From contig NZ_ABIZ01000001.1 in NCBI RefSeq assembly GCF_000172155.1, positions 1,116,001 to 1,180,000 on the forward strand: a stretch of DNA of 64,000 bases, read 5' to 3'. Shown one piece after another: positions 37,381 to 64,000 of this stretch. The notes under the pieces were generated by a model that saw nothing but the letters and a program-made list of their open reading frames with translations, had not been told where the DNA came from and did not search any database. Position 1 is the stretch's first letter, and each line of letters opens with the position of its first letter. The translations under genes and the position numbers were made by a program. This DNA is from Verrucomicrobium spinosum DSM 4136 = JCM 18804. GTDB lineage: Bacteria > Verrucomicrobiota > Verrucomicrobiia > Verrucomicrobiales > Verrucomicrobiaceae.

Positions 37381-37623
37381 TCCAGTATTTCTGCCGAGTC
37401 GGTGTTGGGACTGGCAGGCGCTGGAGGCACTCCACAAGCGCCACTGCCACATAGCACAACGGCTCTAGAGTGTGTCGATGTGGATGAGTTCGAATGCAGC
37501 TTGAATGCGGTTGCAAATCCTCCATCTTGCACCACGGATCACCATTGCAGGGTGGGTATTGCGTGCGGCGGCTGGAGGTGCACGGTCTAATTTCCCTGGA
37601 AATCTGAAAGTAGATATCTCGCC

Positions 37624-39857: not shown

Positions 39858-39859
39858 TA

Positions 39860-44181: not shown

Positions 44182-44187
44182 ATTGTC

Positions 44188-45312
44188 ATGCGGCACATGG
44201 GGAACATTTTCAGATTGGGGGTGAAGGAGTTCTGGAGCCTTGCCCGGGACCCGATCATGCTCATGCTGATTGCGTATGCTTTCACGGTGATGATCTATGT
44301 GGCCGCCACCGCGCTGCCCGACACACTGCACCATGCCCCGATTGCCATTGTGGATGAAGACGGTTCTCCGCTCTCCGCGAGGATTGTGGCGAGCTTCTAT
44401 CCACCACGATTCAAATCGCCTGCACTGATCACTCTGGACCAGATGGACGCTGGGCTTGATTCCGGAGTCTATACATTTGTGGTGGACATCCCGCCCAACT
44501 TCCAGCGTGACGTGCTGGGGGGGCATACGCCGAAGATTCAGGTCAACGTGGATGCCACGCGAATGAGCCAGGCTTTCACCGGTACTGCCTATGTACAGGA
44601 GATCATCATGGACGAGGTCAACGAGTTTGCGCAGCGCTATCGCAGCAGCACCCGACCGCAGGTGGATCTGGCCATTCGTACCCGTTTCAATCCCAACCTG
44701 GAGCAGTCCTGGTTTGGCGCTCTGATGGAGATCATCAACAATGTGACCATGCTCTCCATTATCCTCACCGGTGCCGCTCTGATCCGCGAGCGGGAGCATG
44801 GGACCGTTGAACACCTGCTGGTGATGCCGGTCACCCCGGGGGAGATCATGCTCTCCAAGGTATGGTCCATGGGGCTCGTCGTGTTGGTGGCCGCGGGAGG
44901 CTCCCTGATGTTTGTCGTCCAAGGCTTGTTGAAAGTGCCTGTGGAAGGCTCTGTGGTCCTGTTTCTTGCAGGAGCCTCTTTGCACTTGTTCGCCACCACC
45001 TCCATAGGCATCTATTTGGCGACATTGGCGCGGAACATGCCTCAATTTGGCATGCTAATGATCCTGGTGCTTTTGCCTTTGGAGATGCTCTCGGGTGGTC
45101 TCACTCCTCGGGAGAGCATGCCTCAGTTGGTACAGAACATCATGCTGGCGGCGCCCACCACTCATTTTGTGGAGATCGGACAGGCCATCCTCTACCGAGG
45201 GGCCGGCATTGAGGTGGTGTGGCGTCCGTTTCTGACTTTGCTACTCATTGGCAGCGCATTCTTCGCCCTGTCTCTTGCCCGCTTTCGCAAAGCCATCGCT
45301 CAAATGGCGTGA
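44188..45312 (+). CDS. yhhJ: ABC-2 type permease (YhhJ-like)
   Basis: The 374-residue protein starts 7 bp after the RbbA-like gene. One N-terminal helix (PIMLMLIAYAFTVMIYVAA) is followed by an extracytoplasmic domain of about 150 residues and five helices, including the ABC-2 hallmark REREHGTVEHLLVMPVTPGEIMLSK near residue 195. It pairs with the permease half of RbbA to form the membrane channel. It is the last gene of the operon. About 50 bp downstream a perfect 8-bp hairpin (45362-45379) could slow transcription, but it lacks a T-run. Confidence 0.9.
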   Translation: MRHMGNIFRLGVKEFWSLARDPIMLMLIAYAFTVMIYVAATALPDTLHHAPIAIVDEDGSPLSARIVASFYPPRFKSPALITLDQMDAGLDSGVYTFVVDIPPNFQRDVLGGHTPKIQVNVDATRMSQAFTGTAYVQEIIMDEVNEFAQRYRSSTRPQVDLAIRTRFNPNLEQSWFGALMEIINNVTMLSIILTGAALIREREHGTVEHLLVMPVTPGEIMLSKVWSMGLVVLVAAGGSLMFVVQGLLKVPVEGSVVLFLAGASLHLFATTSIGIYLATLARNMPQFGMLMILVLLPLEMLSGGLTPRESMPQLVQNIMLAAPTTHFVEIGQAILYRGAGIEVVWRPFLTLLLIGSAFFALSLARFRKAIAQMA

Positions 45313-45662
45313 AACTTACGCGATGATGCGCCTTTGGAAGGCAGCCGACTTTCGCAATACGCATCCTCTCAAGAGGATGGGCCGAAGAGTGAATCGAAAC
45401 ACTACAGAGCGATGGATAGAGAGAACGCGAACTCACGAGCGTTCCATCCCTTGTGAGTAAAGCAGATTCGCAGAGCGTATGGAAACAGCGTATGGAAACT
45501 GATCTCGGTGCCTGGGGAAGGGGGGGACTGAAGGCAAAGTTGACGGGATTAAGAAGAATGATAAATGGCTGACTCAGAAAGTTGAGGTAAAAGATTATTG
45601 AGCAGGCTGGGCATCTTATTCAGAGATACCCATTGCCTCCCGAACCTAAATGAGTGAATCGG
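45313..45662. other. Intergenic region between convergent export operon and lysR
   Basis: 350 bp without a supportable gene. A perfect stem CATCCTCT-CA-AGAGGATG at 45362-45379 is the only visible structure. The duplicated word GTATGGAAAC (near 45478 and 45490) is a short direct repeat. Confidence 0.4.
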
Positions 45663-46556
45663 TTAAAGCTCTTTGCTTGAGTTTTCTTTCCTGAGAATTT
45701 CGGCCAGTGCCGGGTTGGGGAAACGGCGGCTTGGCGTAATCGCATAGAAGCTCTCTCTAATGCCTGCCACACGATGACGCTCTACGAGAAGACCGGTGTC
45801 CAGTTCACCCCGCACGACGACAGGCGGAACGAGCGCCAGACCGGCACCTTCTCGGGCTAGAAGACGCAGCATTGCCATGTCGTCCACCTCGGCGGCGATA
45901 ATGGGCCTGATGCCTAGTTGCTCAAGCACGAGGTCGAAAGCGACGCGGATGTTGCTGTCGAGGCTCGGAAGAACGAGTGGAGTCGTGCGTAGATCTTCGG
46001 GGAAGCTGAACTTTTTCTGCGTTCGTGTGCGCAGTCCGATGAGGCTGACTGGTTGTTCGTCAAGGAGGTGGCTGTGCCAGTTGGTTTCGGCATCGCGATG
46101 CACAGGAAGGTTGGAGAGAACGGCGTCGAGGGTATGGGCGCGAAGCTGGGCGAGCAAATTGCGGAGGTTGCCGGAGCGGATGATCAATTCTACGTCGCTG
46201 CGGCCAATGAGTGGGCGCAGGAGCGTGAGCTGGAAGTTGCGCGACAATGTGGCGACGGCACCGACGCGCAGGACTTGGCGGCGACCGGAGTCCCTGTTCC
46301 GGAGCACGTCCAGCAGCTCCTCTCCCGATCGGAAGATGGACTGGGCGTAGTCCAGTGCGATGCGCCCGGCTTCCGTAAGGACGAGGGTTTTATTCTGCCG
46401 ATGAAACAACGGCTGGCCGAGACTGTCTTCCAGGCTGCGGAGTTGGGTGCTCAGGGCGGACTGGGAGAGCTTAAGGCGTTCCGCTGCGCGCGTGAGGCTT
46501 CCTTCGTTGGCAATGGCTCGGAAATAGCGGAGGTGGTGATAGTTCAGAGAGGACAT
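45663..46556 (-). CDS. LysR-type regulator of the DAB operon
   Basis: The 297-residue protein begins with the winged helix-turn-helix of LysR regulators (NYHHLRYFRAIANEGSLTRAAERLKLSQSALSTQ in two adjoining pieces) and continues with an effector-binding domain (RVGAVATLSRNF, DAVLSNLP, GAGLALVPPVVV). It is of NhaR/CbbR-like length. It is divergent from dabB with only 84 bp between the starts, the standard arrangement for a regulator of the neighbouring operon. Known DAB operons often carry a LysR-type gene, where CO2 limitation is the likely signal. Control of dabBA-purKE is inferred. Confidence 0.85.
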   Translation of the reverse strand: MSSLNYHHLRYFRAIANEGSLTRAAERLKLSQSALSTQLRSLEDSLGQPLFHRQNKTLVLTEAGRIALDYAQSIFRSGEELLDVLRNRDSGRRQVLRVGAVATLSRNFQLTLLRPLIGRSDVELIIRSGNLRNLLAQLRAHTLDAVLSNLPVHRDAETNWHSHLLDEQPVSLIGLRTRTQKKFSFPEDLRTTPLVLPSLDSNIRVAFDLVLEQLGIRPIIAAEVDDMAMLRLLAREGAGLALVPPVVVRGELDTGLLVERHRVAGIRESFYAITPSRRFPNPALAEILRKENSSKEL

Positions 46557-46640
46557 TCGTCACTTCTATTTAAGCGAACGAAACTGCGCAAAAGATATAT
46601 TGGAACGAACGAAGATTTTCAAGATACGTTGGGACGCCTT
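46557..46640. promoter_or_regulatory. Divergent lysR/dabB control region
   Basis: 84 bp separate the two starts. GAACGAA occurs twice (AAGCGAACGAAA and GGAACGAACGAAG), giving a spaced direct repeat, and AT-rich TATTTAAG and AAGATATATT could be -10-like boxes. A LysR-type box (T-N11-A) is expected here but cannot be fixed. Confidence 0.45.
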
Positions 46641-48254
46641 ATGAATCTGCCGTCCACCGATCCCACTCATCCGATCTTCTTCGTTTCCGCAGTCGCGGCG
46701 GGCCCATTGGTGATGCTCGCGGCAGCGCTCGTTCCCTCAAGGTTGGCCAATCGCCACGGGCGAAGGTTTGCAGCGCTCGCCTCGTGGTTGTCGCTGGGAG
46801 TTTTTGTTGTGGCGTTGTCCGCAGGCATCGGGTTCTTGTTCGCGGGCCCGTTGGTGGCTGGAGGGCTGGGCGTCGGCTCGGTGCGGATTGGGGTTTACTT
46901 CGACATGCTCTCTGCGGTGATGCTGCTGCTCGTCTCCTTCCTCGGCGCGGTGGTGGTGCGCTTTGCAGGAAATTACCTCGCCGGCGACCCGCAACAAGGC
47001 AAGTTCACCAAATGGCTGTGCGTAACGATCGGCTCCGTGCTTGTGCTTTGCATCTCGGGCGACCTGCTTATGTTCACTCTCTCGTGGACAGCGACGAGCC
47101 TGAGCCTGCACAAGTTGCTTACTTTCCATCCGGACCGGCCGGCTGCGATGCTGGCAGCGCGGAAGAAGTTCCTCATCAGCAGGCTCGGCGATGCTTGCCT
47201 TGTCGGGGCGCTGGTGATGACCTGGCAGTGCTTCGGCACCTGGAATTTCACGGAGATGTTCGCCGCGGCGGCCGTCCTGCGTGAGCAGGGTGGAGCGTAC
47301 CCATCCTGCCTTGGTTGGACGAGCGTGCTGCTCGTCGCCGGAGCGCTCCTGAAGTCGGCGCAGTTTCCCTTTCACAGCTGGCTGCCGGACACGATGGAGA
47401 CGCCGACGCCTGTTTCGGCGCTTATGCACGCGGGCATCATCAACGCGGGCGGCTTTCTGGTCGTGCGGCTCAGCCCCATCATCGCAGGGGCGCCCGCCGC
47501 GCTCAATGCCCTGGCGGTGGTGGGTGCCTTTACCGCGCTCTTCGCCTCGCTGGTCATGCTGACGCAGACCAGCGTAAAGCGCTCGCTCGCCTACTCGACC
47601 ATCGCGCAGATGGGCTTCATGATGCTACAGTGTGGCCTTGGGGCTTTCGCGCTTGCGGTGCTACACATCGTCGCGCACTCACTCTACAAGGCGCACGCAT
47701 TTCTCTCCTCTGGCAGCATCGTCAGCATGACGAGGTCGGCTTGGGTGCCGTCGGAACGACCCGGGGCGCATCCCCTCATTCTTGTTATCACGCTCAGTTC
47801 GGCAATCGCGCTCACATGGGGTGTCGGGGCGATCTTCAAACTCAGCCCCGCGAGTGACGCTGGGGTGATGCTGCTTGGTGCGGTGTTCATGATGGGCCTG
47901 GCGCATTTGCTCTGGAATCTCTGGGCGTCCTCACATCGTTCCTCGTTGGTGGATTGGGGCCTGCTGGTTGGCGGGGGCGTGGCCATCGCGTATTTCGCGC
48001 TGCACGCGGCCTTTGAGAAGCTGCTGGCGTCCTCGGTCGCGTCCTATACACCGCTGCGGTCGCCGCTCGAATTCGGCGTCATGGCCATGGTCGTCCTGCT
48101 CTTCATGGCCGTGCTGGTTCTGCAATCGCAACTGCCGTGCTGGTCGGCGACCCGCCTCGGCCGCGTGTTCTATGTGCATGCCTCACAGGCCTTTTACCTG
48201 GGCCAGTTCGCCAACCGTCTGACGCTCGCCATTTACGGCAAGAAGGCCGTCTGA
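46641..48254 (+). CDS. dabB: DabB, proton-conducting subunit of DAB inorganic-carbon transporter
   Basis: The ATG at 46641 gives 537 residues; the frame upstream only shadows lysR. About 13-14 membrane helices match the NuoL/MrpA proton-translocating family, with the hallmark LLKSAQFPFHSWLPDTMETPTPVSALMH (split: conserved Lys near 236 and the PTPVSAL segment), HAGIINAGGFLVVRL, and SVKRSLAYSTIAQMGFMMLQ with the conserved Lys and His downstream (VLHIVAHSLYKAHAFL). Length is shorter than NuoL and typical for DabB. It starts the operon and is followed by dabA after 23 bp. In characterised systems it couples ion flow to DabA. Confidence 0.9.
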   Translation: MNLPSTDPTHPIFFVSAVAAGPLVMLAAALVPSRLANRHGRRFAALASWLSLGVFVVALSAGIGFLFAGPLVAGGLGVGSVRIGVYFDMLSAVMLLLVSFLGAVVVRFAGNYLAGDPQQGKFTKWLCVTIGSVLVLCISGDLLMFTLSWTATSLSLHKLLTFHPDRPAAMLAARKKFLISRLGDACLVGALVMTWQCFGTWNFTEMFAAAAVLREQGGAYPSCLGWTSVLLVAGALLKSAQFPFHSWLPDTMETPTPVSALMHAGIINAGGFLVVRLSPIIAGAPAALNALAVVGAFTALFASLVMLTQTSVKRSLAYSTIAQMGFMMLQCGLGAFALAVLHIVAHSLYKAHAFLSSGSIVSMTRSAWVPSERPGAHPLILVITLSSAIALTWGVGAIFKLSPASDAGVMLLGAVFMMGLAHLLWNLWASSHRSSLVDWGLLVGGGVAIAYFALHAAFEKLLASSVASYTPLRSPLEFGVMAMVVLLFMAVLVLQSQLPCWSATRLGRVFYVHASQAFYLGQFANRLTLAIYGKKAV

Positions 48255-48277
48255 ACAACTCCCGCCCAACCACGCTC

Positions 48278-50752
48278 ATGACCATTACCCACGCTCCAAA
48301 CTCCGACGCCTGCGCGACCGTAAATCCCTCCGCCGTTCTCGACGCCGCCCGAGCCGCGTGCAAACGCATCGCGCCACTCTGGCCGCTGCAAAACTTCGTC
48401 GCGGTGAATCCATTCGTCGGCCTGACCGAGAGGCCTTTCCTTGAAGCGTGCGAACTTGTCCGGCGAGTCGCGCCAGGTGGCATGCAGATGCCGCTGGAAT
48501 TCTACCGCGAAAAATACTCAGCGGGTGAAATCACCAATGCCGATCTGGACATGGCGCTCGCCCAAGCAAGGAAAACCCTGCTGGGACAGAATGCAGACGC
48601 GCTCGCGAGACTTGACGCGGAGAGCCTCAGGCAAGCGGTGACAGCGGAACCTTCGCCATCGTCGTGGAATGCAATCGTTACTGTCGCGGAGGCGGTGGAT
48701 TGTGTGCATGGTACCGAGTGGGAAGTGGCCGTCACCGAAACCATCGCACAGTTTTGCTCGGAATATTTTGATGCTGGACAATCAGCCTGGCGGCTGCCAT
48801 GGCGGACGCTTCCGCTCTACGCAGCGTGGCGCGAGAAGGCCTCAATCAACCTGAACGCCGAAGTCCTCGGTCTGCGCAACTTCCGCCGGTGGGTGAAAGC
48901 GCTGCCAGATGACGCGGAGCAGGCACTTGCCTTGTTCATGCAAAAGTTCGGCGTGGCTGAGGAGGAAGCCGCTGACTTCTGCCACCGGCAGCTTATGAGC
49001 ATCCGTGGCTGGGCCGGACATGTTCAGTATCGCGTGCGCGAAAACAGCATGCATGGTCGGGGCGACGACACGCTGCTGCAACTGCTCTCCATCCGTCTCG
49101 CTTACGATGCGGCGCTCCTCGCACAGTTTGACAGCCCGTCGTTGCGCGAGTTCTGGCCCGCGGCATCCCATGCAATGCCCGCTGATCACCAAGAAGTGCT
49201 CCAGGCCATGCTCTGGCAGCTCGCGCATGAACACGCCTGGCAGCGCCAGTTTCTCGGAAAACTGTGTGTCGCCAAGGCCGCCCTCAGCCTGGAGCGGCCC
49301 GCCGTGCAGGCTGTGTTTTGCATTGATGTACGATCGGAAATTCTCAGGCGGGCGCTCGAAGCCGCGACACCGAAAATCGAGACCATTGGTTTCGCTGGCT
49401 TCTTTGGCCTGCCGATCGAATACATTCCCTTCGGCCAGAAAGATGGCACCTCCCAGTGCCCGGTGCTGCTCACCCCGAAATTCCGGGTGCGCGAGACGCT
49501 GCGGAAGGCGACGGCAGAAGCCGTCAACACGGAATGGAGGCGGCAGCAGCTCGGCAAGCGGCTTACTTATTCGTGGAACTCGTTCAAGACATCTGCCATC
49601 TCATGCTTCTCGTTCGTGGACACGGTGGGTCTCGCCTTCGGCGCAAGGCTCTTCCGCGACGCCTTCGCCCCTGGGGCGGCAAATCATGCGCACAAAAGTG
49701 CGTGCGTACCGCACCTTGGAAAATGCGAAGCGGACAAGACTGGCATCGCCATCGAAGACCGTGTGCAACTTGCCCTCGGGGCGCTGCGCAACATGGGTTT
49801 GACGAAAAACTTTGCCCGAGTTGTCCTGCTCTGCGGTCACGGAAGTGAGACTGCAAACAATCCTTACGGCTCCGGCCTCGACTGCGGGGCCTGCGGAGGG
49901 CATGCTGGCGATGCCAATGCACGCGTCGGTGTGGCAATTCTCAACGACACCGCGGTCAGAGAGGCGCTCAAGGGACACGGCATCCACATTCCGGCGGACA
50001 CCTGTTTCCTCGCGGGACAGCACAATACCACGACCGACCACGTCACGCTCTTCGACCTCGACGACGTGCCTGCCTCGCATCGCGGAGACCTCGCGGAACT
50101 CCAAAATTGGCTCGCCACAGCTGCGAGAACCACCCGGCGCGAGCGGGCCGCATTTCTTGGTCTCGACAGCACCTCTCCGAATCTCGATGCGCAGGTGATC
50201 GCCCGGAGCCGCGACTGGGCACAAGTCCGGCCGGAGTGGGGCCTCGCGGGTAACGCTGCGCTCGTCGCCGCGCCGCGCTTGCGGACCAAGACCGCGAACC
50301 TCGGCGGCCGCGTCTTCCTGCACAATTACGACCACCGCGCTGACACCGCCGACAGCACGCTAGAACTCATCATGGTCGCTCCTGTGGTCGTCGCGAACTG
50401 GATCAACCTCCAATATTATGCCTCGACTGTGAACAATGCCGTCTTCGGCAGCGGGAACAAGGTTACACATAACGTCGTCGGGACCATTGGTGTCTGTCAA
50501 GGCAACGGGGGCGACCTTCAGCTCGGCCTCCCGCTCCAATCTGTCCACGACGGTGCAAAATGGATTCACGACCCCATTCGGCTCCATGTCCTCATCGAGG
50601 CCCCGCGCGAACGCATCGCCGCCGTCCTTGCTAAGCATGAGAACCTGCGGCAGCTCGTGGACAACGGCTGGCTCCTGCTCTTCGCCATCGAGGATGAAGG
50701 GCAAACCTTGTTTCGTTATTATTCTGGCATGAAATGGGAATCCCTAGACTGA
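48278..50752 (+). CDS. dabA: DabA, zinc-binding carbonic-anhydrase-like subunit (DUF2309)
   Basis: The ATG at 48278 gives 824 residues. The opening (PLQNFVAVNPFVG) is the DUF2309 hallmark. The zinc site of a beta-carbonic-anhydrase-like centre is complete: CIDVRSE with Cys348 and Asp350, HGSETANNPYGSGLDCGACGG with His521 and Cys536. These sit a constant three residues before the C351/D353/H524/C539 set known from Halothiobacillus DabA. With DabB it should hydrate CO2 to bicarbonate on the cytoplasmic side, driven by ion flow, and so accumulate inorganic carbon. No carboxysome or RuBisCO gene is in the window. purK follows within 6 bp. Confidence 0.93.
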   Translation: MTITHAPNSDACATVNPSAVLDAARAACKRIAPLWPLQNFVAVNPFVGLTERPFLEACELVRRVAPGGMQMPLEFYREKYSAGEITNADLDMALAQARKTLLGQNADALARLDAESLRQAVTAEPSPSSWNAIVTVAEAVDCVHGTEWEVAVTETIAQFCSEYFDAGQSAWRLPWRTLPLYAAWREKASINLNAEVLGLRNFRRWVKALPDDAEQALALFMQKFGVAEEEAADFCHRQLMSIRGWAGHVQYRVRENSMHGRGDDTLLQLLSIRLAYDAALLAQFDSPSLREFWPAASHAMPADHQEVLQAMLWQLAHEHAWQRQFLGKLCVAKAALSLERPAVQAVFCIDVRSEILRRALEAATPKIETIGFAGFFGLPIEYIPFGQKDGTSQCPVLLTPKFRVRETLRKATAEAVNTEWRRQQLGKRLTYSWNSFKTSAISCFSFVDTVGLAFGARLFRDAFAPGAANHAHKSACVPHLGKCEADKTGIAIEDRVQLALGALRNMGLTKNFARVVLLCGHGSETANNPYGSGLDCGACGGHAGDANARVGVAILNDTAVREALKGHGIHIPADTCFLAGQHNTTTDHVTLFDLDDVPASHRGDLAELQNWLATAARTTRRERAAFLGLDSTSPNLDAQVIARSRDWAQVRPEWGLAGNAALVAAPRLRTKTANLGGRVFLHNYDHRADTADSTLELIMVAPVVVANWINLQYYASTVNNAVFGSGNKVTHNVVGTIGVCQGNGGDLQLGLPLQSVHDGAKWIHDPIRLHVLIEAPRERIAAVLAKHENLRQLVDNGWLLLFAIEDEGQTLFRYYSGMKWESLD

Positions 50753-50757
50753 GGCTG

Positions 50758-51939
50758 ATGAAACGCATTTTGAATACCGACCCTATACCCAATCTGCCCA
50801 CTGTGGGAATCATTGGCGGAGGACAGCTCGCCCTCATGCTCGTGCGTGCTGCCTCGCAGCTCGGATTGCACGCACGAGTGATTGATGCATCACCAATATG
50901 TCCCGCGCGGCGCGATGCTGCAGACTTCTGTGAAGGGAATCCAGAATCGCCCGCCACGCTTGACCGCTTTGCGATGAATCTCGAAGTCGTCACGTTGGAG
51001 AACGAATTTCTCGACGCTGCTCTCATTGCCGGACTCGAAGCCGAAGGTCAAGAGGTCTTGCCGTCATCGCGCACGATGTCGCTGGTGCAGGACAAACTCG
51101 CTCAAAAGCAGACGTTGCGAAATGCCGCTGTGTCCGTCGTGGATTTTGAGCCTGTGAATGACGGCACCCCTATACAGGAGCTTGAGAGCCTGTTCGGTCT
51201 CCCGTTCGTGCTCAAAAAGAGATGCCACGGCTACGACGGAACCGGCAATTTTACGGTGCATCGTGCGGAGGAATGGGACGCAGCGCTGAACAAGCTCGGC
51301 GGTCGCGAGTCCGGACTCTACGCAGAGCGATGGTGCCCCTTCGAGCGCGAACTTGCGGTCATCGTCACTCGCAGCAAAAAGGGTGAGCACGTCCTCTATC
51401 CGGTTGTGGAGACGCGGCAGCGAAACCATGTTTGCGAACAAGTCATTGCTCCTGCGGCGGTTAGTGGTTCCATTGCTGAGCAGGCCGCGCATCTAGCCTT
51501 AAAGGCGATTGAAGCCGTCGATGGTGTTGGCAGCTTTGGCGTTGAGTTCTTCCTGCTCGCTGACGGAACGCTGCTTGTGAACGAGATCGCGCCACGGGTG
51601 CACAACTCTGGCCACTACACCATCGAAGCATGTGAGTGCTCACAGTTTGAAAATCACATCCGCGCCATCTGCGGACTGCCGCTTGGCAGCACCAAGCTGC
51701 GCCAGCCTGCTGCGATGGTGAATCTTCTTGGAAAGACTACCGCCGCCGGCGCGCCGCGAGGCCTTGCAGAGGCACTGGCGGTTTCCGGTGCGCATGTGCA
51801 TTTGTATGGCAAACATCACGCCAAGCGCGGAAGGAAGATGGGGCACGTCACCGCGCTCGGAAGCACCTCTGATGAAGCCCTTGCGACTGCGCAGTGCGCG
51901 GCTGATTTCATACACTTCGATCAACCCAATCTAATATGA
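50758..51939 (+). CDS. purK: PurK, 5-(carboxyamino)imidazole ribonucleotide synthase
   Basis: The ATG at 50758 gives 393 residues and follows GAGG at 50751. An ATG at 50734 would overlap dabA by 19 bases. It has the ATP-grasp fold with PurK landmarks: [85 protein letters not shown]. It converts AIR, ATP and bicarbonate to N5-CAIR. It is directly downstream of the DAB genes and overlaps purE by four bases (ATGA), so bicarbonate supply and the bicarbonate-consuming step of purine synthesis are on one probable transcript. Confidence 0.95.
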
Positions 51940-52436
51940 ACGAATTCACCACACCTCTCGTCGGAATAATCATGGGCAGCGACTCCGACTGGGCCACCAT
52001 GCGTGCAGCTGCGGAGACCTGCCTCGAGTTCGATGTAGGGTTTGAAGCCCGCGTCGTCTCTGCGCATCGCACTCCTGATGACATGGCGGAATACGCCCGC
52101 AGTGCCATGGGGCGAGGGCTGCGTGTTATCATTGCCGGAGCGGGAGGGGCCGCGCATCTTCCAGGAATGGTCGCGAGTCACACCGTGCTTCCGGTTATCG
52201 GCGTGCCTGTGGAGTCGAAAGCACTCAAAGGGATGGACTCTCTTCTATCCATCGTGCAAATGCCCGCTGGCATCCCCGTCGCCACCGTTGCCATTGGTAA
52301 TGCACGTAACGCGGGGCTGCTCGCATTGCAGATCCTCGCGATTGGTGATGAGTCGTTGCGAGCGAAGTTGCTCGCTTATCGAGAAGAAATGGCTGCCAAC
52401 TCCCGCCAAAAGACGGCAAAACTCACCCTTGATTAA
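51936..52436 (+). CDS. purE: PurE, N5-CAIR mutase
   Basis: The 166-residue protein has all class I PurE motifs: [13 protein letters not shown] at the start, [12 protein letters not shown] with the catalytic His, [16 protein letters not shown], and [21 protein letters not shown]. It rearranges N5-CAIR to CAIR right after PurK. It is translationally coupled to purK. It ends the operon, and the genomic island begins about 450 bp later. Confidence 0.96.
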
Positions 52437-52886
52437 AGAGACAGCTAATAGCCTCGTTTCTCCAAAGCTGAGATGCATCGACGATGATGTTGCGCGGCAG
52501 GCAGAGGGCAAATGACAGGGCCACTTTTTTCGAGAGCCCGGTCCTGCCCTCCGTGTGCCGCATTCTCTGGATACGGACACCTTGGGGCATTTTCCCTCAA
52601 GATCCCGCTCCGCAGAACTTTGGAGGCACTGGCACCGCCTGCTTTGCTTTCAGCATGTGGTTGCCCGCGGTTTGGCAATGGTGGGATTGAGCCCGAACTC
52701 CCGTGCGAAATGTGTAGCTGGCCAACGGAACAACCCGTTTTGAGATCGGTTTTTCAGCTGGGCGCGCCATCATTCATTCTGACACAACTTTCACCTTGGC
52801 AGGGCGAAACCGGATATCCCCTCGAGCTGTTTTCACCGCAGATTCAGGGGTTTTCTGGAACCTCCAGGGAGAGGGGTATCTTCAAA
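52437..52886. other. Region between purE and the tRNA-Leu fragment
   Basis: About 450 bp without a supportable gene. Frames that read through it join tRNA sequence and are artefacts. No obvious purE terminator with a T-run is seen. Confidence 0.4.
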
Positions 52887-52944
52887 TGCCGACAGCGGGA
52901 CTCGAACCCGCACGGTGGTCACCCACCAACAGATTTTAAGTCTG
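52887..52944 (-). pseudogene. 3' part of tRNA-Leu(TAA), probable att site of the island
   Basis: On the minus strand the sequence runs from the anticodon stem CAGA-CTTAAAA-TCTG (anticodon TAA) through a long class II variable arm (TTGGTGGGTGACCACC), the T-arm (GCGGGTTCGAGTCCCGC) and the acceptor 3' strand TGTCGGCA. No D-arm or 5' acceptor strand lies upstream (after 52944), so this is not a complete tRNA. Such a 3' fragment beside a tyrosine recombinase is the usual att end left by integration into a tRNA gene. Confidence 0.85.
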
Positions 52945-52986
52945 GTATGAAATTGTTCATATTCAAGTGACTAGGAGTCAAATAGC

Positions 52987-54174
52987 TTGCTGAGTGTCAA
53001 AAAAGTGTCAAGCTGGGCAATGGCTTGGCCTCTCATCAGGAAACGCTCCAACCGTCGTTCAGTTTCGTGGATGGTGGACTGTGGAATGGTCGATGGCAAG
53101 AGAGTGCGATACTTCTTCGGGTCGCGTTCGGAAGCTGAGACCAAAGCTGAACAGCTGAGAATTGAGAAAAAGAACGTCGGCTTGGCGGCCTTTGCACTGA
53201 CCGACTCAGAGCGCGCACAGGCTGCAGAGTGCATCGAGCTTCTACGGCCATTTGGGAAGTCTCTGAGGGACGCGGTAGACTACTACCTGCCGCATTTGAA
53301 GTCGATCAATCGTTCGATAACGTTCGAACGATTGGGCCAGGAAGTTGTAGAAGCAAAGCGCACAGATGGGTTGAGTGTCCGGTATCTGGGTGACCTCGAT
53401 CAGAAGTTCAAGGCATTCAATCAGTCATTCGGCTCTCGACTGGTTGCATCGATTGAAGCTCTAGAAATTGATGATTGGCTTCGAGGTCTTCGGACTCATA
53501 GCGGAGCGAGGGTGTCGGCGGTGAGTCGGAACAACCTGCGTAGAGTGCTCGGGGTGGCGTTCTCGTACGCAGTGGTTCGTCAGTACTGCGATCGAAATCC
53601 TGTCACGAGTACTCAGAAAGCAAAAGAGGCGGAGAAGCCAGTGGGGATATTGTCGCCTGACCAGTTGAAGTCTTTGCTGTCGGTTGCCCCACCCCAGCTG
53701 GTTCCATTCATCGCAATCGGCGCGTTTGCAGGGCTGCGTCGGGCAGAACTGGAGCGACTTGATTGGGCAGAAGTGAACCTGAACTCTGGATTTGTAGAAG
53801 TGAAGGCTAGCAAGGCAAAAAGTGCTCGTAGACGTCTCGTCGCAATCAGGGACAATCTCCGGAGCTGGCTATACCCTTTGGTCGAATCGGTGGGCTTGGT
53901 GACTCCCATGAACTATCGGTCGCTTTTGGACACAGCTAGGAAGAAGGCATCGATTCCTGAATGGCCTCACAATGCTCTGAGGCACTCATTTGCGAGCTAT
54001 TGCTTGGCGGCAGAAAAAAACGCGGCGGCACTTGCACTCGATATGGGGCACACAACGCCACAATTGATTTTTGCTCACTATAGAGAAGTAGTGCAGGAGT
54101 CAGCTGCCACTCGTTACTGGAACATTACTCCCGATGACAAATCAGACCCTGCTGGGGATGTCAATTCAGATTGA
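52987..54174 (+). CDS. Tyrosine recombinase (island integrase)
   Basis: The start at TTG 52987 follows AGGAG (52976-52980) and gives 395 residues; the ATG at 53020 is an alternative. The C-terminal catalytic domain has FAGLRRAELERLDW (first Arg near 246), a Lys-rich beta hairpin (VKASKAKSARRRL), NALRHSFASY (the HxxR position reads Asn-Ala-Leu-Arg followed by His), DMGHTTPQLIFAHYRE with the second His and the nucleophile Tyr in HYR. The N-terminal half is an arm/core-binding region. It lies 42 bp from the tRNA fragment and points into the island, as expected for a tRNA-targeting integrase. Confidence 0.92.
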   Translation: MLSVKKVSSWAMAWPLIRKRSNRRSVSWMVDCGMVDGKRVRYFFGSRSEAETKAEQLRIEKKNVGLAAFALTDSERAQAAECIELLRPFGKSLRDAVDYYLPHLKSINRSITFERLGQEVVEAKRTDGLSVRYLGDLDQKFKAFNQSFGSRLVASIEALEIDDWLRGLRTHSGARVSAVSRNNLRRVLGVAFSYAVVRQYCDRNPVTSTQKAKEAEKPVGILSPDQLKSLLSVAPPQLVPFIAIGAFAGLRRAELERLDWAEVNLNSGFVEVKASKAKSARRRLVAIRDNLRSWLYPLVESVGLVTPMNYRSLLDTARKKASIPEWPHNALRHSFASYCLAAEKNAAALALDMGHTTPQLIFAHYREVVQESAATRYWNITPDDKSDPAGDVNSD

Positions 54175-57537: not shown

Positions 57538-58778
57538 CAGGGCTTACGCATCTAGTTTTTACAAAGCACGTGGAAATTAGTTAAGATGTGTGAATGAAGT
57601 GGGGCATGTCTTCCGCCTCTGCATCTCCTGACAGCAATCTTCGTGAAGTTTTTCAGAGCATTGATGACTGGAGGGTGCAGCGTACCCAGCGACATGATCT
57701 GGCCGACATCCTGGTGATTGCCACCTGCGCCATGCTGTGCGGTCAGGGGCATTACACCCATATGGAAGCCTTCGGCAATCTGAAGCGCACTTGGTTGGAG
57801 AGCTTTCTTGCCCTGCCCAACGGCATTCCCAGTCACGACACGTTCCGTAAAGTCTTCAGCCTGCTTGATCCCAAGCGCTTCATGGAAGCCTTCAGTCTCT
57901 GGACCCAAGGTGTATTGCGCCAACTCTCCAGCGAGGGGCTTGAGAGCGGTCTCAAAGGGGTGATCGCCATTGATGGAAAGGCACTGCGCGGGGCCGTCGA
58001 CAAAGGGCAGGCACCTGCGGTCATCGTGGGGGCTTGGGCCAGTGAATTGAGCCTGTGCCTTGGACAGGTCAAGGTTGCTGACAAGAGCAATGAGATTGGC
58101 GCGATGCCGGAGTTGTTGGAAATGCTGGCGTTGAAAGGCTGCATCGTGACCATCGACGCCATGGGCTGCCAGAGGGAGGTGGCCAGGAAAATCATCCAGC
58201 AAAAGGGGGACTACATCCTGGCCCTCAAAAGCAACCAGGAAAGCCTCCATCAACAGGTCAGCCACTATTTGGACACGGGGGAGGACCTGGCCAGGGCAGA
58301 AGGCAACTTTCATCAAGAGGAAAGCGATGGGCACGGCCGGCATGAAGTGCGTCGCTGTTGGGTGAGTGAGGAAGTGGAATGCTGGCTGCAGGGGGCAGAA
58401 AAGTGGGCGGGACTGCGCAGCGTGGCTGCGGTGGAATGCGAGCGCACCGTGGCGGGTCAGACCACGGTGCAAAGGCGTTACTTCATCAGCAGTTTGAAAG
58501 CCGATGCCGCGCTCATTGCAGCCTCAGTACGCGCTCACTGGGGGATTGAAAACTCGCTGCACTGGGTTCTAGATGTGACCTTTGGCGAAGATGAGAGCCG
58601 GTCTAGAAGCGGTTACAGCGCGGAGAATCTGGCCACCCTTCGACGCCTGACTCATGCAATGATCAAGCGAGAGAACCCAAACTCCAAAAAATCGGTCAAC
58701 CAACGCAGATTCGAAGCCGGACTCAGTACAGACTATCTCCAAACCTTGCTTGGAGTAAATTTAGATGCGTAAGCCCTG
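57538..58778 (+). mobile_element. ISAs1-family insertion sequence, complete
   Basis: The 1241-bp element has perfect 17-bp terminal inverted repeats (CAGGGCTTACGCATCTA). It is flanked by a 9-bp direct duplication GTTGTGGGA at 57529-57537 and 58779-58787. One transposase frame fills it on the plus strand. The clean duplication and intact frame suggest a recent insertion. Confidence 0.95.
57594..58772 (+). CDS. ISAs1-family transposase
   Basis: This is an intact 392-residue frame (alternative start at the ATG of MSSASASPD). Family landmarks are REVFQSIDDWR, a FSLLDPKRFMEAF segment, IAIDGKALRGAVDKG (first catalytic Asp near 127), VTIDAMGCQREVA (second Asp near 185), KGDYILALKSNQ and HWGIENSLHWVLDVTFGED (final Glu near 320). 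The stop codon lies inside the right terminal repeat. Confidence 0.95.
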   Translation: MKWGMSSASASPDSNLREVFQSIDDWRVQRTQRHDLADILVIATCAMLCGQGHYTHMEAFGNLKRTWLESFLALPNGIPSHDTFRKVFSLLDPKRFMEAFSLWTQGVLRQLSSEGLESGLKGVIAIDGKALRGAVDKGQAPAVIVGAWASELSLCLGQVKVADKSNEIGAMPELLEMLALKGCIVTIDAMGCQREVARKIIQQKGDYILALKSNQESLHQQVSHYLDTGEDLARAEGNFHQEESDGHGRHEVRRCWVSEEVECWLQGAEKWAGLRSVAAVECERTVAGQTTVQRRYFISSLKADAALIAASVRAHWGIENSLHWVLDVTFGEDESRSRSGYSAENLATLRRLTHAMIKRENPNSKKSVNQRRFEAGLSTDYLQTLLGVNLDA

Positions 58779-60906
58779 GTTGTGGGACTACAAGCCAGAC
58801 GTTCCGAGATTAGGCGTCTCTGGCCTCAACGCTTGGGCGAATGTTGCCAAAGATGTGCTTAGCTTCCACAATAAAAGGGGTGGGGTCATCATTTTTGGTT
58901 TCAGTGATAGTTTTGAATTCGTGGGCGCGAAGGTCCGATTAGATAGTAAATTAATTAATGATCAATTGCGTCGATATTTGCCGGATACCGTGTGGGTGGA
59001 ATTTCATAGGGAATTCATCCAATCTGATCAAAGATATGTTGGCATTGCGGTGATTCCACCTAATCTAGGGAAGTTGGCATGTTTCACGTGTGATGCTCCG
59101 ACAAGCGAAAAGAAGCAGCTATTCAAGAAGGGGGGGTCTGCGATACGTATAGAGGATTCCAGTTATGTGCTAAGCGTAGACAAAGTTGATGAATGGAATA
59201 GAAAAGATACAAAGTTGCAAGTGGGGCAGAAATATTACGTTGATGAGCCCTTCTATCGTGTGCCTTCGCCAGAATATGTGGAGTTTGTCTATAGACAAGA
59301 GCCCTGCGCTGAGATTGAGGCTGCGTTGCGCGATCCTCGAACATCGGTCGCGCATGTCATTGGAATTGGAGGGTTGGGGAAAACGGCGCTTGCCACATGG
59401 GCAGCTATACGCGCTTATGAGAGCAATCAGTTCGATTTTATTGTTTCGTGTACAGCAAAGGATCGGGAGTTAACTGCATCTGGGATTGCGGGGCTAAAAC
59501 CGGAGGTTACATCGTTCGAGTCTCTGTTGAATGCTGTATGTGATACTCTGCAATTTCCAGAGTATAAGCAAGGTAAGCTGGATGAGAGGGAGGATGCGGT
59601 GCGTAATATGCTGCGGGATAGCAATGGTCTGTTGTTTGTGGATAACTTGGAGACCGTGGATGATCTCAGGATAATCAGATTCTTAGATACACTTCCAGTG
59701 GGAGTACGGGCGCTCGTTACCTCTCGTCGATTGACCGTTAAATTTGCGGTGTATCCTGTGACGCTCGGACCGATGAATGCTGCTGAAACTTGCAGCTTTG
59801 TGAGGTCATTGCAATCGCTGTCTTCTTGCAGCTATGTATCTCAGTTTAGAGATGATCAGATTCTGAGGATTGGGGAGGCGTGCAATCATATTCCGCTCGC
59901 AATGAGATGGATGATTAGCAAATCAAAGAGTGCATCGGCTGCTTTAAAAGAGGTTGATGCGACGATAAGCTTGGGTATGCACGGGGAAGAGTTGTTGGAG
60001 TTTTCATTCAGACGTGTTTTTGAACAGATGGTCCAGAATGAAAGGACAGTACTTGAAGTCCTTTCGCTTTTTGCGCAGCCGCAACCTAGCGAAGTTCTGC
60101 TAGTCGGGTCTGCGTTAAAGCTTCCTGAGTTGCAAGATGCTCTCTCGACGTTGATCGAGGATGCAATTGTTGTTAAGCACTTCAATCAAGGTTTGAATGA
60201 CGAGTGCTATACTGTTTTGGCGATTACTAGATCGTTTATCTATTCTGAGCTGGTGAAAAATGGAGGGAGAGAGCAGACTATAAGAGTGCGACTTAGAGAC
60301 TATTTTGAGGCGCGAGACATCAAGAATGAGGACGATCGCATTGTCGTGCGGTCGATTAGGCAAAGTGCTGGGAAGAACGATTCTGCTTTGCTTGACCTTG
60401 CAGAGTCTGCTAGAAGAAGAGGGGACTTAGCCAGTGCTGAGGATTTGCTCAAGCAGGCGATTTCACGTAATCCTCGAAATTGGCGTGCATATAGATCACT
60501 GGCAGAACTTCAGCGCCATGAATTCAAGAGGCCGGGTGAGGCGTTGAGGTTGTACGAGCAAGCGGCCGCAAATTCTCCAAAAGATCGAATTGAGCGGGCA
60601 AAACTGTATAGAGAATGGGGGATCTTGTTGCGAGATTCTGGGCAGACGGATGCGGTCGATCAGGCGGCTAGTAAGTTGGAAGAAGCGCATGAGTTGAATT
60701 CTCGGGATTGGGTGACTGTTACGGCTCTTGCGCAAATCTATGACCGTCGCGGTGCGTCTGCCAAAGTGATTGAACTCTGTGAGCCGTTGAAGCGGGAGGT
60801 CTACGGAAAGACTAAAGAGAAGATGCTCCCTCTGCTTCTAAAAGCATATCAGCGCAGCGGTGAAGTTGTCGCTGTTGCTGAAATTAGGGCGCTGTTGGGT
60901 CAGTAG
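58765..60906 (+). CDS. AlbA/Schlafen-NB-ARC-TPR STAND protein, 5' end lost to ISAs1
   Basis: The present frame has 713 residues; its first five come from the insertion element. Without the element the gene would run from 57407 and encode 749 residues. An AlbA_2/Schlafen-like domain (DVLSFHNKRGGVIIFGFSD near 30) is followed by an NB-ARC ATPase: IGIGGLGKTALAT (Walker A near 200), LLFVDNLETVDD (Walker B near 290), ALVTSRRL (sensor), HIPLAMRW (GLPL-like). A winged-helix region and TPR-like repeats (WRAYRSLAELQRHEF) close it. STAND proteins with such effectors act as phage sensors. The insertion makes normal expression doubtful, though translation from 58765 is possible. Confidence 0.85.
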   Translation: MRKPWLWDYKPDVPRLGVSGLNAWANVAKDVLSFHNKRGGVIIFGFSDSFEFVGAKVRLDSKLINDQLRRYLPDTVWVEFHREFIQSDQRYVGIAVIPPNLGKLACFTCDAPTSEKKQLFKKGGSAIRIEDSSYVLSVDKVDEWNRKDTKLQVGQKYYVDEPFYRVPSPEYVEFVYRQEPCAEIEAALRDPRTSVAHVIGIGGLGKTALATWAAIRAYESNQFDFIVSCTAKDRELTASGIAGLKPEVTSFESLLNAVCDTLQFPEYKQGKLDEREDAVRNMLRDSNGLLFVDNLETVDDLRIIRFLDTLPVGVRALVTSRRLTVKFAVYPVTLGPMNAAETCSFVRSLQSLSSCSYVSQFRDDQILRIGEACNHIPLAMRWMISKSKSASAALKEVDATISLGMHGEELLEFSFRRVFEQMVQNERTVLEVLSLFAQPQPSEVLLVGSALKLPELQDALSTLIEDAIVVKHFNQGLNDECYTVLAITRSFIYSELVKNGGREQTIRVRLRDYFEARDIKNEDDRIVVRSIRQSAGKNDSALLDLAESARRRGDLASAEDLLKQAISRNPRNWRAYRSLAELQRHEFKRPGEALRLYEQAAANSPKDRIERAKLYREWGILLRDSGQTDAVDQAASKLEEAHELNSRDWVTVTALAQIYDRRGASAKVIELCEPLKREVYGKTKEKMLPLLLKAYQRSGEVVAVAEIRALLGQ

Positions 60907-60995: not shown

Positions 60996-61766
60996 CTAGT
61001 TCAGCCCGAGACCCACATGGACATCCAGCAATCCATGGAGGGCTTCCGTCTTCTTCGGGAGCTCTGAGAGACTGCCGTCTTTGAGAGCTTCCGTGAAGGC
61101 GTTGAAGAGGCTCCAGACACTGCGATCTTCAAAGACCTGGTATCGTGGTTCCCTCCATTCCTTCAGCACGGAGGGGATGAGTCGGTTGCTGCAGACTCCA
61201 ACGTCGGTGGCCCGAATGATCAGGTCGTGGGCGATGGAGTCTTCAATATCGGCTTCCTTGTAGGCACCGATGCGTTTGTCCTGGTGATGCCATTTGCTCA
61301 TGAGTTGACCGATGGCTCTCTCAGTGATCCCGGGAAGGTCTCTGACGATGAAGCGGGTGTGTTTTCGGGCGAATTTGACCTCCCCGGAAAAGGAGAGGTT
61401 GTCGCACACAAAAACGCTAGCGCCGGCGACAATACCTGCTGGAAAGGTCTTGTCATGGCTGTTTCTGAGACCGAGCACCCAACAGTAGTCATCATCGTTC
61501 TTCGGGCCAAGAATTTCCATCAGACCGAAGTATCGATGGCCTTTATGACTGAGACTGTGGGCCTGGGTGCCGATGCGCAGATTGGTGCTCTTGAGGGTCT
61601 TCTGCACGGTCTCGATCAGCCGGTTATGAGGGATGGGACACCAGCTGGAGGTTGACCGGGGTGTTCTGACGTCCTGAACTTCATCCAGTGTGGCTTTGTA
61701 AGCGCCGCAGTGAAGGATCAGGTTCGGGGTGGGGCGTTTTGGTTTGGGTTGTTCGAGTAGTTGCAT
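60996..61766 (-). CDS. DUF932 (phage/plasmid-related) protein
   Basis: The ATG at 61766 gives 256 residues; the frame runs on to 61910 but crosses a terminator and is not coding there. The pattern NRLIETVQKTL, HRYFGLMEI, WVLGLRNSHDKTFPAGIVAG, SVFVCDNLSFSGE.KFARKHT matches DUF932 proteins found on plasmids, phages and ICEs. Their function is unknown. It is the last of four minus-strand island genes, each separated by a hairpin. Confidence 0.8.
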   Translation of the reverse strand: MQLLEQPKPKRPTPNLILHCGAYKATLDEVQDVRTPRSTSSWCPIPHNRLIETVQKTLKSTNLRIGTQAHSLSHKGHRYFGLMEILGPKNDDDYCWVLGLRNSHDKTFPAGIVAGASVFVCDNLSFSGEVKFARKHTRFIVRDLPGITERAIGQLMSKWHHQDKRIGAYKEADIEDSIAHDLIIRATDVGVCSNRLIPSVLKEWREPRYQVFEDRSVWSLFNAFTEALKDGSLSELPKKTEALHGLLDVHVGLGLN

Positions 61767-61848: not shown

Positions 61849-62748
61849 CTACGTCCAGCCTTTGAGCGCATCTGAGAGCGGTATGTCTCGAAAAAGGGCG
61901 GGCATTTCATCCGCGAAAACCGTCACTCGTATCGAGTCCTGAGATTTGAATGGCTGTCTCGAAGTTTTATCAAGCCATTCTTTCATCAACTCCACCTCCC
62001 TCTTCAGTGTGACTGAGCTTTCAGGATAGAGGGGGCCGCCCTGATCGTTTGGAAGGCTGAAACGCAGGGAATACGCCTCGGTTTCATCTTTATCCAAGAT
62101 GACTGGATCCAAGGGGCGAATGGCGTTGCCTGCTGCTCGTAGAGGAATTGTGATGTAGGCAGAATAGTGCATCGCAATTCTTCTCCCTACGTTGTGGATG
62201 CGGATTAGGATGTGACTTTTGTCTTTCCACGGTTCATGGATGTTTAGGAACACTTCGAATGTAAGACTAGGGTGTTTGGCCCGATTCATTGCTTCCCTCA
62301 CTTCGTAGTCCTGCATGAACCTGTTCTCGAAGTTGTAGCGCCGGTAGTATTTCCCGTCAGGGGCCTGGTGTACGGTCTCCGACTGGGGAACCTCGACCAC
62401 GTAGCAGCAGTCGTTGGTCGATGAGTCCAATTGTACTGGATGGATCACAACTCCTTGAATTCTGGGCTGAATGCCAGAGATGATCTGCTCAAGCCATTCC
62501 TTGGAAAACTGGTCTCTGGCTATGGGGTCGACTCGTTCTGGGAGGTGTTTTCTGTCTTGGGATGAGTGCTCTTTGATTCCGTAGATGATGGTACCACCGG
62601 CCGAGTTGGCGAATGCAGATACATCTTTCTGGATCTCTTCTCTCTTTTGTGTCTGCTTGGCGAAGGCTCCTGCCGCTTTGTAGTCGAGGTTTAGGCTCTC
62701 TTCCACACCGTCGGCGATCATCTGTTCAAGACGTTGTTGATTCCACAT
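61849..62748 (-). CDS. AlbA_2/Schlafen-domain protein
   Basis: The 299-residue protein starts with the AlbA_2 signature in order: EESLNLDYKAAGAF (E..DYK), IQKDVSAFANSAGGTIIYGIKE, RVDPI, and YYRRYNFENRFMQDYEVREAMNR. The C-terminal 130 residues form a beta-rich domain (ILIRIHNVGRRIAMHYSAYI) unlike a helicase or ATPase. Schlafen/AlbA_2 domains bind or cut nucleic acids and are common in defence and in transcription factors of mobile elements. This one has no partner ATPase. It shares the domain type with the split STAND gene in the same island. Confidence 0.8.
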   Translation of the reverse strand: MWNQQRLEQMIADGVEESLNLDYKAAGAFAKQTQKREEIQKDVSAFANSAGGTIIYGIKEHSSQDRKHLPERVDPIARDQFSKEWLEQIISGIQPRIQGVVIHPVQLDSSTNDCCYVVEVPQSETVHQAPDGKYYRRYNFENRFMQDYEVREAMNRAKHPSLTFEVFLNIHEPWKDKSHILIRIHNVGRRIAMHYSAYITIPLRAAGNAIRPLDPVILDKDETEAYSLRFSLPNDQGGPLYPESSVTLKREVELMKEWLDKTSRQPFKSQDSIRVTVFADEMPALFRDIPLSDALKGWT

Positions 62749-62898: not shown

Positions 62899-63174
62899 TC
62901 AATACTCCTCTGGTAATATCACCGTGGTCATCGACCGGTCTGCTTCGGTGATGATCCAGAACTTTTGATCCCGTCTGTCGTGGTAGACGGAGAACACTCT
63001 GGTTCCTTCTACCAATGCAAGATCGTTTGCTTTGGCGTCTTCCTCATCGCAGTCGCCCCAGTCTCCGCATCGGTGCCGATTCAGTGAATTCGGCACGTCT
63101 TCGGGATCAAGTAGGTTGAGAGCGCCTGGTGTCAGGAAGAGACCGCCCAGTTCGAATTTGGGTTCTGTATTCAT
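62899..63174 (-). CDS. Small conserved plasmid-type protein
   Basis: The 91-residue protein has the pattern FELGGLFLTPGAL, LNRHRCGDWGDCDEEDAKAND, VFSVYHD and WIITEADRSMTTVILPEEY. I know this as a widespread small protein of plasmids and ICEs often placed near DUF932 genes; its function is unknown. It lies 150 bp upstream of the AlbA_2 gene, in the same direction. Confidence 0.75.
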   Translation of the reverse strand: MNTEPKFELGGLFLTPGALNLLDPEDVPNSLNRHRCGDWGDCDEEDAKANDLALVEGTRVFSVYHDRRDQKFWIITEADRSMTTVILPEEY

Positions 63175-63263: not shown

Positions 63264-64000
63264 CTAGATCCTCAGACGGGTGAGGGATTGAATGGTGGCA
63301 CGTACCGATTGCAGATCGCGTTCAGCATTGCGACGACCCTTCTGGAGCTGCCGGAGTTGTTTGGACGCATCCTGGAGCCGGTTAAGGCCATTCACGATGG
63401 TGTCACGGGCTTCTCCGATGACCTGAACGATCTGATCAATGCCTGGCGCTTGTTCTTGCTCTGTCGATGTGTTGTGGGTGGCTGGCATGGGTTTCCTTTC
63501 TGGTTTGGTTGGTTGAGGCTTGGTGGTGGGTGGGGGCTGTAAGGCTTTTGGTACAGGTGGTGAGAGCTGAGTAGCTTCTTCTCCCGCTTCGAGTCTGACC
63601 GGCATGATGACCAGTTGTCTGCCACTCCGAAAGAATCGAAGGGGTGACATCGGATCAACAATACCCATCGTATCGAGCCCGTACTCCAGAGCCTTCACGA
63701 AGTAGCGACGGTCACAGAAGTAGGTGACCTCTGAGCCCGTCCCTTTGGATTCTGGAATCACTATCCGACTCCAGGGTTCGTTTGACTCTTGCTTGGCCAG
63801 CAACGCCATCTGACCGTCTTTCCATTGAATACCCATGGTCTGATACTTAGGATCGTGGCAGGGCATTCTCTGGATGGTCTGGACCACGTTCTGGATATTG
63901 TCGGCATTGACCTGTAGGTGGGTCTTTGCCTCTACCGGGTCAGGCACGCAGACCTGCCAGTTGGGGTAGTTGTCTTTGATGAGTCGACTGATGAAGCGCC
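63264..64000 (-). CDS. DNA polymerase sliding-clamp (DnaN)-like protein with coiled-coil tail (5' truncated by window edge)
   Basis: The frame is open to the window edge, so the GTG at 63947 is internal. The visible part starts with RFISRLIKDNYPNWQVCVPD, which corresponds to the G-x-F/Y-P-D/N-W/Y...V-I/V-P motif between clamp domains. It continues with a beta-clamp-like domain ending CDRRYFVKALEYGLD, SPLRFF, GRQLVIMPVRLE, where DnaN ends in a similar MPVR segment. A proline-rich linker (about 125-160) and a 60-residue coiled coil (GEARDTIVNGLNRLQDASKQLRQL) are added. Clamp function is inferred from this pattern only. It heads the minus-strand group of island genes. Confidence 0.65.
   Translation of the reverse strand, partial: RFISRLIKDNYPNWQVCVPDPVEAKTHLQVNADNIQNVVQTIQRMPCHDPKYQTMGIQWKDGQMALLAKQESNEPWSRIVIPESKGTGSEVTYFCDRRYFVKALEYGLDTMGIVDPMSPLRFFRSGRQLVIMPVRLEAGEEATQLSPPVPKALQPPPTTKPQPTKPERKPMPATHNTSTEQEQAPGIDQIVQVIGEARDTIVNGLNRLQDASKQLRQLQKGRRNAERDLQSVRATIQSLTRLRI

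Follow-up and report, generated by a model that had tools for sequence, protein, structure and literature searches.

A Tail-Bearing Sliding Clamp Encoded with a Nuclease Module on Integrative Islands of Verrucomicrobiota

The element clamp gene of Verrucomicrobium spinosum

The window analyzed here is a stretch of 64,000 nucleotides from Verrucomicrobium spinosum DSM 4136, corresponding to genome positions 1116001-1180000. The features below are given in window positions, continued on the same scale beyond its end.

52887..52946, no strand: left attachment repeat of 60 bp, identical to 109984-110043 inside tRNA-Leu(TAA)
52987..54174, plus strand: tyrosine integrase of the island
57594..58772, plus strand: DDE transposase belonging to an insertion sequence within the island
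58765..60906, plus strand: AlbA_2 + TPR protein; NB-ARC match below threshold, no PADLOC match; probable defence-type cargo
60996..61766, minus strand: DUF932 protein, the last gene of the module; the ORF is open to 61910, and the internal Met start was placed from homolog lengths
61849..62748, minus strand: SLFN/AlbA_2 protein, encoded between the clamp gene and the DUF932 gene; probably cargo
62899..63174, minus strand: 91-aa ORF directly downstream of the clamp gene, 90% identical in the second island
63264..64000, minus strand: element clamp gene P0001, C-terminal residues 240-483, running on to 64715

The SLFN/AlbA_2 gene is absent from the genes common to at least three of the ten elements delimited below. 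The 91-aa ORF has no match in Pfam, PADLOC or PHROGs.

The clamp ORF is open at the window end. The original prediction, made from the window alone, had proposed a sliding-clamp-like protein and its extension past this end. When extended from the host genome, the ORF was completed without an internal stop as a gene of 483 aa on the minus strand (genome 1179264-1180715, ATG at 1180715). The DnaN model search suggested at the same time gave a match to P0001 above the cut-off for PF02767 (35.9 bits; cut-off 27) and one under the cut-off for PF00712 (18.3 bits; cut-off 24.4), for which the paralog P0002 reaches 25.4 bits; no match to PF02768 was found in P0001 in the Pfam search. The DnaN equivalog model TIGR00663 matched at 2.6e-17, and the scores of 62.8 bits (P0001) and 68.7 bits do not reach its curated cut-off of 137.65, the former being less than half of it. 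The best profile match to P0001 among the libraries tried was PHROG 947, a phage processivity factor, which covers residues 4-376 at 1.3e-26. Solved bacterial beta clamps align over positions 13-371 to the profile of 21 family members (alignment A1, 21 of 27 trimmed clamps; the start motif is absent from 2 of 29 ORFs).

The two motifs from which the clamp had been recognized are real. YPNW..CVPD aligns onto NYPNYRQVIP of the host DnaN, and the C-terminal IMPVR onto VLMPMR. The paralog P0002 (genome 4637305-4638762) is 74% identical to P0001, and the canonical host dnaN (genome 5084061-5085101) is 26% identical. P0001 is a second DNA sliding clamp, distinct from the cell's own DnaN.

Fold, tail and clade of the element clamps

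The structure was predicted for a homolog, L065 (475 aa, 46% identical to P0001), as a monomer, rather than for P0001 itself or a ring. The mean pLDDT of the model is 84.8. The best Foldseek match is the E. coli beta clamp 7azc (E 3.9e-27, TM 0.81 by target), and the comparison with 6jir gives VIA Z 33.0 with 349 residues aligned over 1-364. Residues 1-364 of the model form a complete three-domain beta clamp, so the refuting outcome named for the locus, a full-length protein lacking a clamp fold, did not arise with this homolog. The identity of the P0001 family is secure as a beta clamp by fold, and not as a DnaN equivalog.

An added proline linker and coiled coil had also been predicted, and the L065 model shows such a linker and a long helix. 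Residues 365-388 and 396-412 have pLDDT <50 and a single helix spans 417-472, that is, the clamp domains are followed by a predicted disordered, Pro-rich linker and a 56-residue helix. The aligned family is likewise Pro-rich and then helical. In the 53 of 57 named-collection clamp loci where MPxR was found, 97-139 residues (median 117) follow this segment, and the tail often closes with a conserved segment, for example TLRSLQG[LI]K[IL]. The idea that the usual hydrophobic end is replaced by a tail is correct as to the presence of a conserved tail, but in 41 of the 57 clamps, a set that includes chains truncated at contig ends, the last two residues of the tail are [KR][ILF]. Among ten more distant clamps, four end like the family tail and the others do not; one of these ten, L170, is without a coiled-coil tail. 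The tail may tether partners.

In an alignment of six element clamps with five host DnaNs, the RYVLNG, TDG, YPxW and MPxR segments are kept. At L160, T178, G180, L183, P251, P372 and R374, P0001 agrees with all five host DnaNs. Residue 182 is His in five and Gln in one of the element clamps, and Arg in the five hosts, and one loop is one residue shorter in the element clamps. From E. coli structures, we take these columns to be the partner-binding cleft between domains 2 and 3. Judged by the aligned residues, the alignment shows that most of this putative cleft is retained. A cleft that is largely kept with one position consistently different would suit a decoy or competitor of the host DnaN, in which the tail and the altered cleft bind host partners and slow host replication or repair. 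Such a role is very improbable, because a simple decoy leaves unexplained both the conserved tail and the conserved operon with DNA enzymes described below.

All 38 element clamps in the tree fall in one clade with the support of 0.99, to which none of the five host or five phage clamps belongs (midpoint root; eight near-duplicate element clamps omitted; host and phage clamps limited to these ten). An element clamp was found at E ≤ 1e-40 in 14 of 288 sampled genomes of the phylum. The named-genome scan with the alignment confirmed clamps in 57 of 141 candidates, and the scan with P0001 alone confirmed 0 of 31. Two of the 57 confirmed records, L098 and L103, carry off-phylum MAG labels (Desulfomonile and Proteobacteria). 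Eleven distant clamps were found and ten fetched (G210 was left out), one from the same class and nine from other classes; the family is present in several classes of the phylum. Sequence-level relation to DnaN could be read as an ordinary dnaN duplicate without a special role, but this is almost certainly wrong and already contradicted, since the tailed clamps form a single deep clade, keep steady neighbours and lie on integrase islands in several classes.

Bacterial DnaN (TIGR00663; E. coli beta 2pol/7azc) and the element clamps share the three-domain fold, as seen in the homolog model, most cleft residues and the MPxR end. Unlike DnaN, the element clamps are at ~20-26% identity to it, fall below the equivalog cut-off, lack a PF02768 match and bear the tail of ~117 residues, and they are element-borne, co-encoded with a nuclease and present beside the host's own dnaN. 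Phages already provide annotated examples of beta clamps on mobile elements, such as the PHROG 947 clamps of Aurantimonas phage AmM-1, Microcystis phage Mae-JY04, Rhizobium phage RR1-A and Paracoccus phage Psul1. The clamps of RR1-A and Psul1, two of the five read, are near an integrase. The phage clamps are ~20-25% identical to the element clamps and outside their clade, and all five examined end ≤11 residues from the MPMR/QPIR position. The phage flanks read (2.8-6 kb) gave no homolog of any other module protein at E<0.5. A phage or plasmid origin of the clamp was considered and rejected: P0001 had no match at 1e-5 among plasmids and phages, the pattern-based scan of IMG/VR confirmed 0 of 3 candidate stretches, and P0002 at E ≤ 1 matched 17 phage records, with only ~20-25% identity among the matches listed.

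The nuclease module and its islands

ORF clustering at 27 loci from relatives and the two own copies revealed a colinear set of genes: an RHH-like protein, a 171-aa protein, a PDDEXK_1 nuclease, two small membrane-type proteins, a WGR + ATP-dependent ligase, the clamp and a DUF932 protein. In the named collection, 35 loci have ≥4.5 kb of upstream sequence. All of them carry the 171-aa gene; the nuclease and the RHH-like gene were found in 32 each, mem199 in 24 and the ligase in 22, with a single gene order in 31. The three loci with no recognizable nuclease upstream of the clamp are L084, L089 and L112. The DUF932 gene follows the clamp in 28 of the 44 named-collection loci that have ≥1.5 kb of downstream sequence and is missing in 16. 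The ten distant loci have homologs of the 171-aa protein (10/10), the nuclease (9/10), DUF932 (6/10) and the ligase (0/10); their gene orders are rearranged and several homologs are weak (32-50 bits). The clamp, the 171-aa protein and the nuclease are likely to be the ancient core. In G298, homologs of the ligase, nuclease and 171-aa protein lie within 16 kb (L167, G298:C1:1538000-1554000), with no clamp or DUF932 homolog in that stretch and no clamp genome-wide at E ≤ 1e-40, so these enzymes can occur together without the clamp.

The window's own module is without the ligase; here mem199 and the clamp are separated by a pair of transposase genes and one further ORF. The gene for the 171-aa protein overlaps that for the nuclease by 4 bp in this copy and by 1 bp in L062, which suggests translational coupling.

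The nuclease matches PF12705 with 106.7 bits, and TIGR00372 (Cas4) at 6.3e-06, below the cut-off. H62, D156 and K167 as well as C35, C257, C260 and C266 (L072 numbering) are invariant in the 33 sequences >250 aa of the 38 available. We take this Cys set to be typical of Fe-S nucleases of the Cas4/AddB kind. By the PF12705 match and the invariant H, D and K, the protein has the features of the PD-(D/E)XK exonuclease part of a lambda Red-type system, and its exonuclease activity is putative. The module shares with Cas4/AddB systems the PF12705 match and the invariant Cys set, and differs from them in that no CRISPR or AddA-type helicase partner was found among the module genes.

The 171-aa protein has no family match in Pfam, NCBI models or PHROGs. 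Its C-terminal half is predicted to be a helical domain, for which the best solved match is the C-terminal domain (CTD) of lambda Red-beta (Foldseek probability up to 0.92, E 0.57; VIA Z 7.1, 6.7 and 6.5, the next entry being 4.0). Z of about 7 for a small helical domain may merely reflect a common arrangement. The relation was unsupported by sequence profiles (hhalign probability ~0.1%), and the Red-beta annealing core was not found in the 171-aa protein; the resemblance of the modelled half to the Red-beta CTD appears to be by fold only. The search of the model against BFVD gave none at E ≤ 0.001 (best 0.003), and the PDB profile search gave nothing convincing; the same search with DUF932 gave at best E 0.033, for a DnaD-domain protein. 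The Red-beta CTD binds lambda exonuclease and an SSB peptide according to the titles of the entries 6m9k and 8tg7, so a nuclease-recruiting adaptor is the natural guess for the 171-aa protein. The likeness to lambda Red (Exo + Red-beta) is that the nuclease gene adjoins the gene for a Red-beta-CTD-like domain. The module differs from lambda Red in its Cas4/AddB-type nuclease, its own clamp, the frequent ligase, the annealase core not found and the profiles unmatched.

The ligase consists of WGR and the adenylation domain of ATP-dependent ligases, and the closest models are of the NHEJ/LigD type. All 15 aligned ligases end in QLK[YF]. As a clamp-binding motif, this end was kept as a lead only, because it is also present in the clamp-less G298 and G167 has the variants QVKYK and QLRYK. 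The RHH-like protein is ~70 aa and was labelled by eye, with no family matched.

In a PADLOC scan of eight module-region proteins, six had no match (the clamp, the 171-aa protein, DUF932, mem199, the RHH-like protein and the 91-aa protein) and the nuclease matched Cas4/DruK weakly. The ligase L006:7223-8281 (plus) matched WGR_XIII in its WGR part at 9.2e-26, and HEAT-ARM_XIII over nearly the whole protein at 9.2e-17. These models are presumably named after parts of type XIII retrons.

The island in the window spans 57 kb and is bounded by perfect 60-bp repeats from tRNA-Leu(TAA); the GC content is 0.514 within it and 0.575 outside. The tRNA-Leu site is unoccupied in the congener G001, which has a single repeat copy and a collinear right flank. 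The left flank of G001 resumes 381 bp away and matches window 36527-37147, so that ~73 kb are missing there, more than the 57-kb island. The extra ~16 kb (window 37148-52886; purE/purK-like by eye) are absent beside the tRNA-Leu site of G001, which points to a second insertion in the host genome or to loss in G001; a third copy of the 60-bp repeat was not found. Another congener, G003, matched the repeat and 168 bp only. The attachment repeats, the integrase, the GC shift and the congener site with a single repeat bear out the claim of a mobile island.

Beyond the genes listed above, the island encodes a Septu-like pair at L005:7021-8604 and 8608-9477 (plus; PADLOC PDC-M01A 1.8e-184 and PDC-M01B 2.1e-87), a protein at L005:10810-12024 (minus) with an LmuA-like N-terminal match of 9.5e-15 and a weaker one to Avs2, and a NACHT-type protein at L005:4230-6098 (plus). 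Inspection of L004 (genome 1187901-1207900) by eye showed, within the island, an array of long ORFs that resemble one another, look secreted and have a 'PVGF' segment in common.

P0002 lies on a second own island of 68.7 kb with a 31-bp repeat at tRNA-Lys(TTT). Among 13 regions, chosen mostly for a nearby integrase and so not a random sample, nine are bounded by tRNA-overlapping repeats of 31-66 bp, one boundary also having an integrase; another region has a 45-bp repeat of 91% without tRNA, and three have none or only a 20-bp repeat. The nine tRNA-repeat regions and G030C5 constitute ten delimited elements of 32.6-88.9 kb. An integrase lies within 40 kb of 15 of 23 clamps from 14 genomes, while 2.05 are expected under uniform placement; here contigs without an integrase count as misses, two integrase matches are partial and below the curated cut-off, and six other clamps (three of G029 and those of G006, G009 and G048) are left out. 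The RHH-like, 171-aa, nuclease, clamp and DUF932 genes are present in all ten delimited elements and the ligase in seven, and the remaining gene content largely differs between elements. The module-bearing islands are a family of integrative elements in Verrucomicrobiota. They resemble other tRNA-inserted islands with tyrosine integrases in that a tRNA 3' end is directly repeated and the integrase adjoins one of the two copies, and differ from them in the shared backbone, which is the clamp-nuclease module.

A partner polymerase or primase on the island had been proposed as well. Such genes were found on some sister elements, but no member of these clusters was found among the part of the ORFs scanned on the window's island. 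A 453-aa protein near the tRNA end of this island (L005:13055-14416) has no Pfam or PHROG match. A Prim-Pol/D5-type primase-helicase is encoded by four of the ten delimited elements, including the second island of the host; the cluster consists of five ORFs, and the two scanned are both Prim-Pol/D5 primase-helicases. The one on the tRNA-Lys island is a Prim-Pol + D5_N + DUF5906 protein (L120:7741-9753, plus), with cluster members on three other elements.

A fusion of Y-family and C-family polymerases is encoded by three of the ten elements, one copy being truncated. It is a protein of 1418 aa (L135:9770-14026, minus, in the element of G023; G025:C1:108675-112919) with IMS and IMS_C at residues 6-335, followed by the DnaE-type PHP, NTPase, finger, HHH and OB of the C family. 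At E ≤ 1e-50, it was found near full length at 16 places in 12 of 57 genomes, one with an internal stop. Seven of these 12 genomes show no element clamp, so the fusion is not tied to the clamp. An S24 peptidase gene (Pfam) and a gene that we label SRAP-like precede it in the element of G025. In a 2026 survey of bacterial polymerases, the passages that speak of fused enzymes mention no such Y/C fusion (PMC12926913).

Proposed role of the element clamp

The original prediction left replication, repair and clamp-dependent defence as options. The gene company favours DNA-end processing or recombination, and defence is unsupported beyond the nearby cargo. Because the steady partners are the nuclease and the 171-aa protein, we infer for the element clamp a role in end processing or repair rather than in a full replication fork. 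It is somewhat probable that the clamp is a dedicated one, loaded by the host loader, which keeps a Red-like machine for end processing and repair attached to the DNA of the integrative element.

In such a machine, the host clamp loader would open the element clamp, no clamp-loader gene being recognized in the module, and two clamp copies would close around the double-stranded DNA of the element as a ring. The cleft and the tail would hold the element's own enzymes on this DNA. The nuclease would resect broken or linear ends, and the 171-aa protein would couple it to single-stranded DNA or to the host SSB, as the Red-beta CTD does. Polymerases of the host, or the primase-polymerase or Y/C fusion of the element where present, would extend, and the ligase of the element or the host would seal. 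Overall, element DNA would be repaired, or completed by recombination, during excision, entry or replication; excision and transfer of the elements are putative. A dedicated clamp would avoid competing for the host DnaN. There is a precedent in a nuclease complex of the RecBCD type that is reported to be able to contact a beta clamp (PMC13254535). A more specific version is tentative: a "clamped Red", in which a tail-tethered nuclease, a Red-beta-CTD-like adaptor and the ligase act processively on element DNA, would make recombination independent of the network of host DnaN partners.

The primase cluster on four of the ten elements, with two scanned ORFs being Prim-Pol/D5 primase-helicases, and the precedent of DnaN clamps of temperate phages (two of five near an integrase) would agree with a replication clamp, with which the element replicates as a circle after excision by its own fork, driven by a primase-polymerase or Rep. 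This alternative is rather unlikely, as six of the ten elements, including the window's, are without a primase cluster member and the steady partners are not replication proteins. An anti-phage defence or anti-defence module, for instance a clamp-guided nuclease acting on replicating foreign DNA, is improbable. The island cargo (the Septu-like pair, the LmuA/Avs-like, NACHT-type and AlbA proteins), the weak Cas4/DruK likeness of the nuclease and the WGR_XIII and HEAT-ARM_XIII matches of the ligase speak for it. However, the module is common to otherwise different islands, as expected of a backbone rather than of cargo, and six module-region proteins are without a PADLOC match. The end-processing role remains the preferred reading.

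Sliding clamps are usually seen as host machinery borrowed by mobile elements, with the exception of some phages. The literature searched consisted of titles and the starts of abstracts, with few subscription papers and no bioRxiv preprints, and in it the clamp family, the module and the element were undescribed. As far as searched, the tail-bearing clamp clade, its nuclease module and the tRNA islands carrying both appear to be new, and the module is a marker for a family of Verrucomicrobiota islands without description there. The islands described here seem to carry a DNA-tethering ring of their own. If this is true, integrative elements other than phages can supply a clamp themselves, and whether the clamp identity separates the DNA metabolism of the element from that of the host becomes testable.
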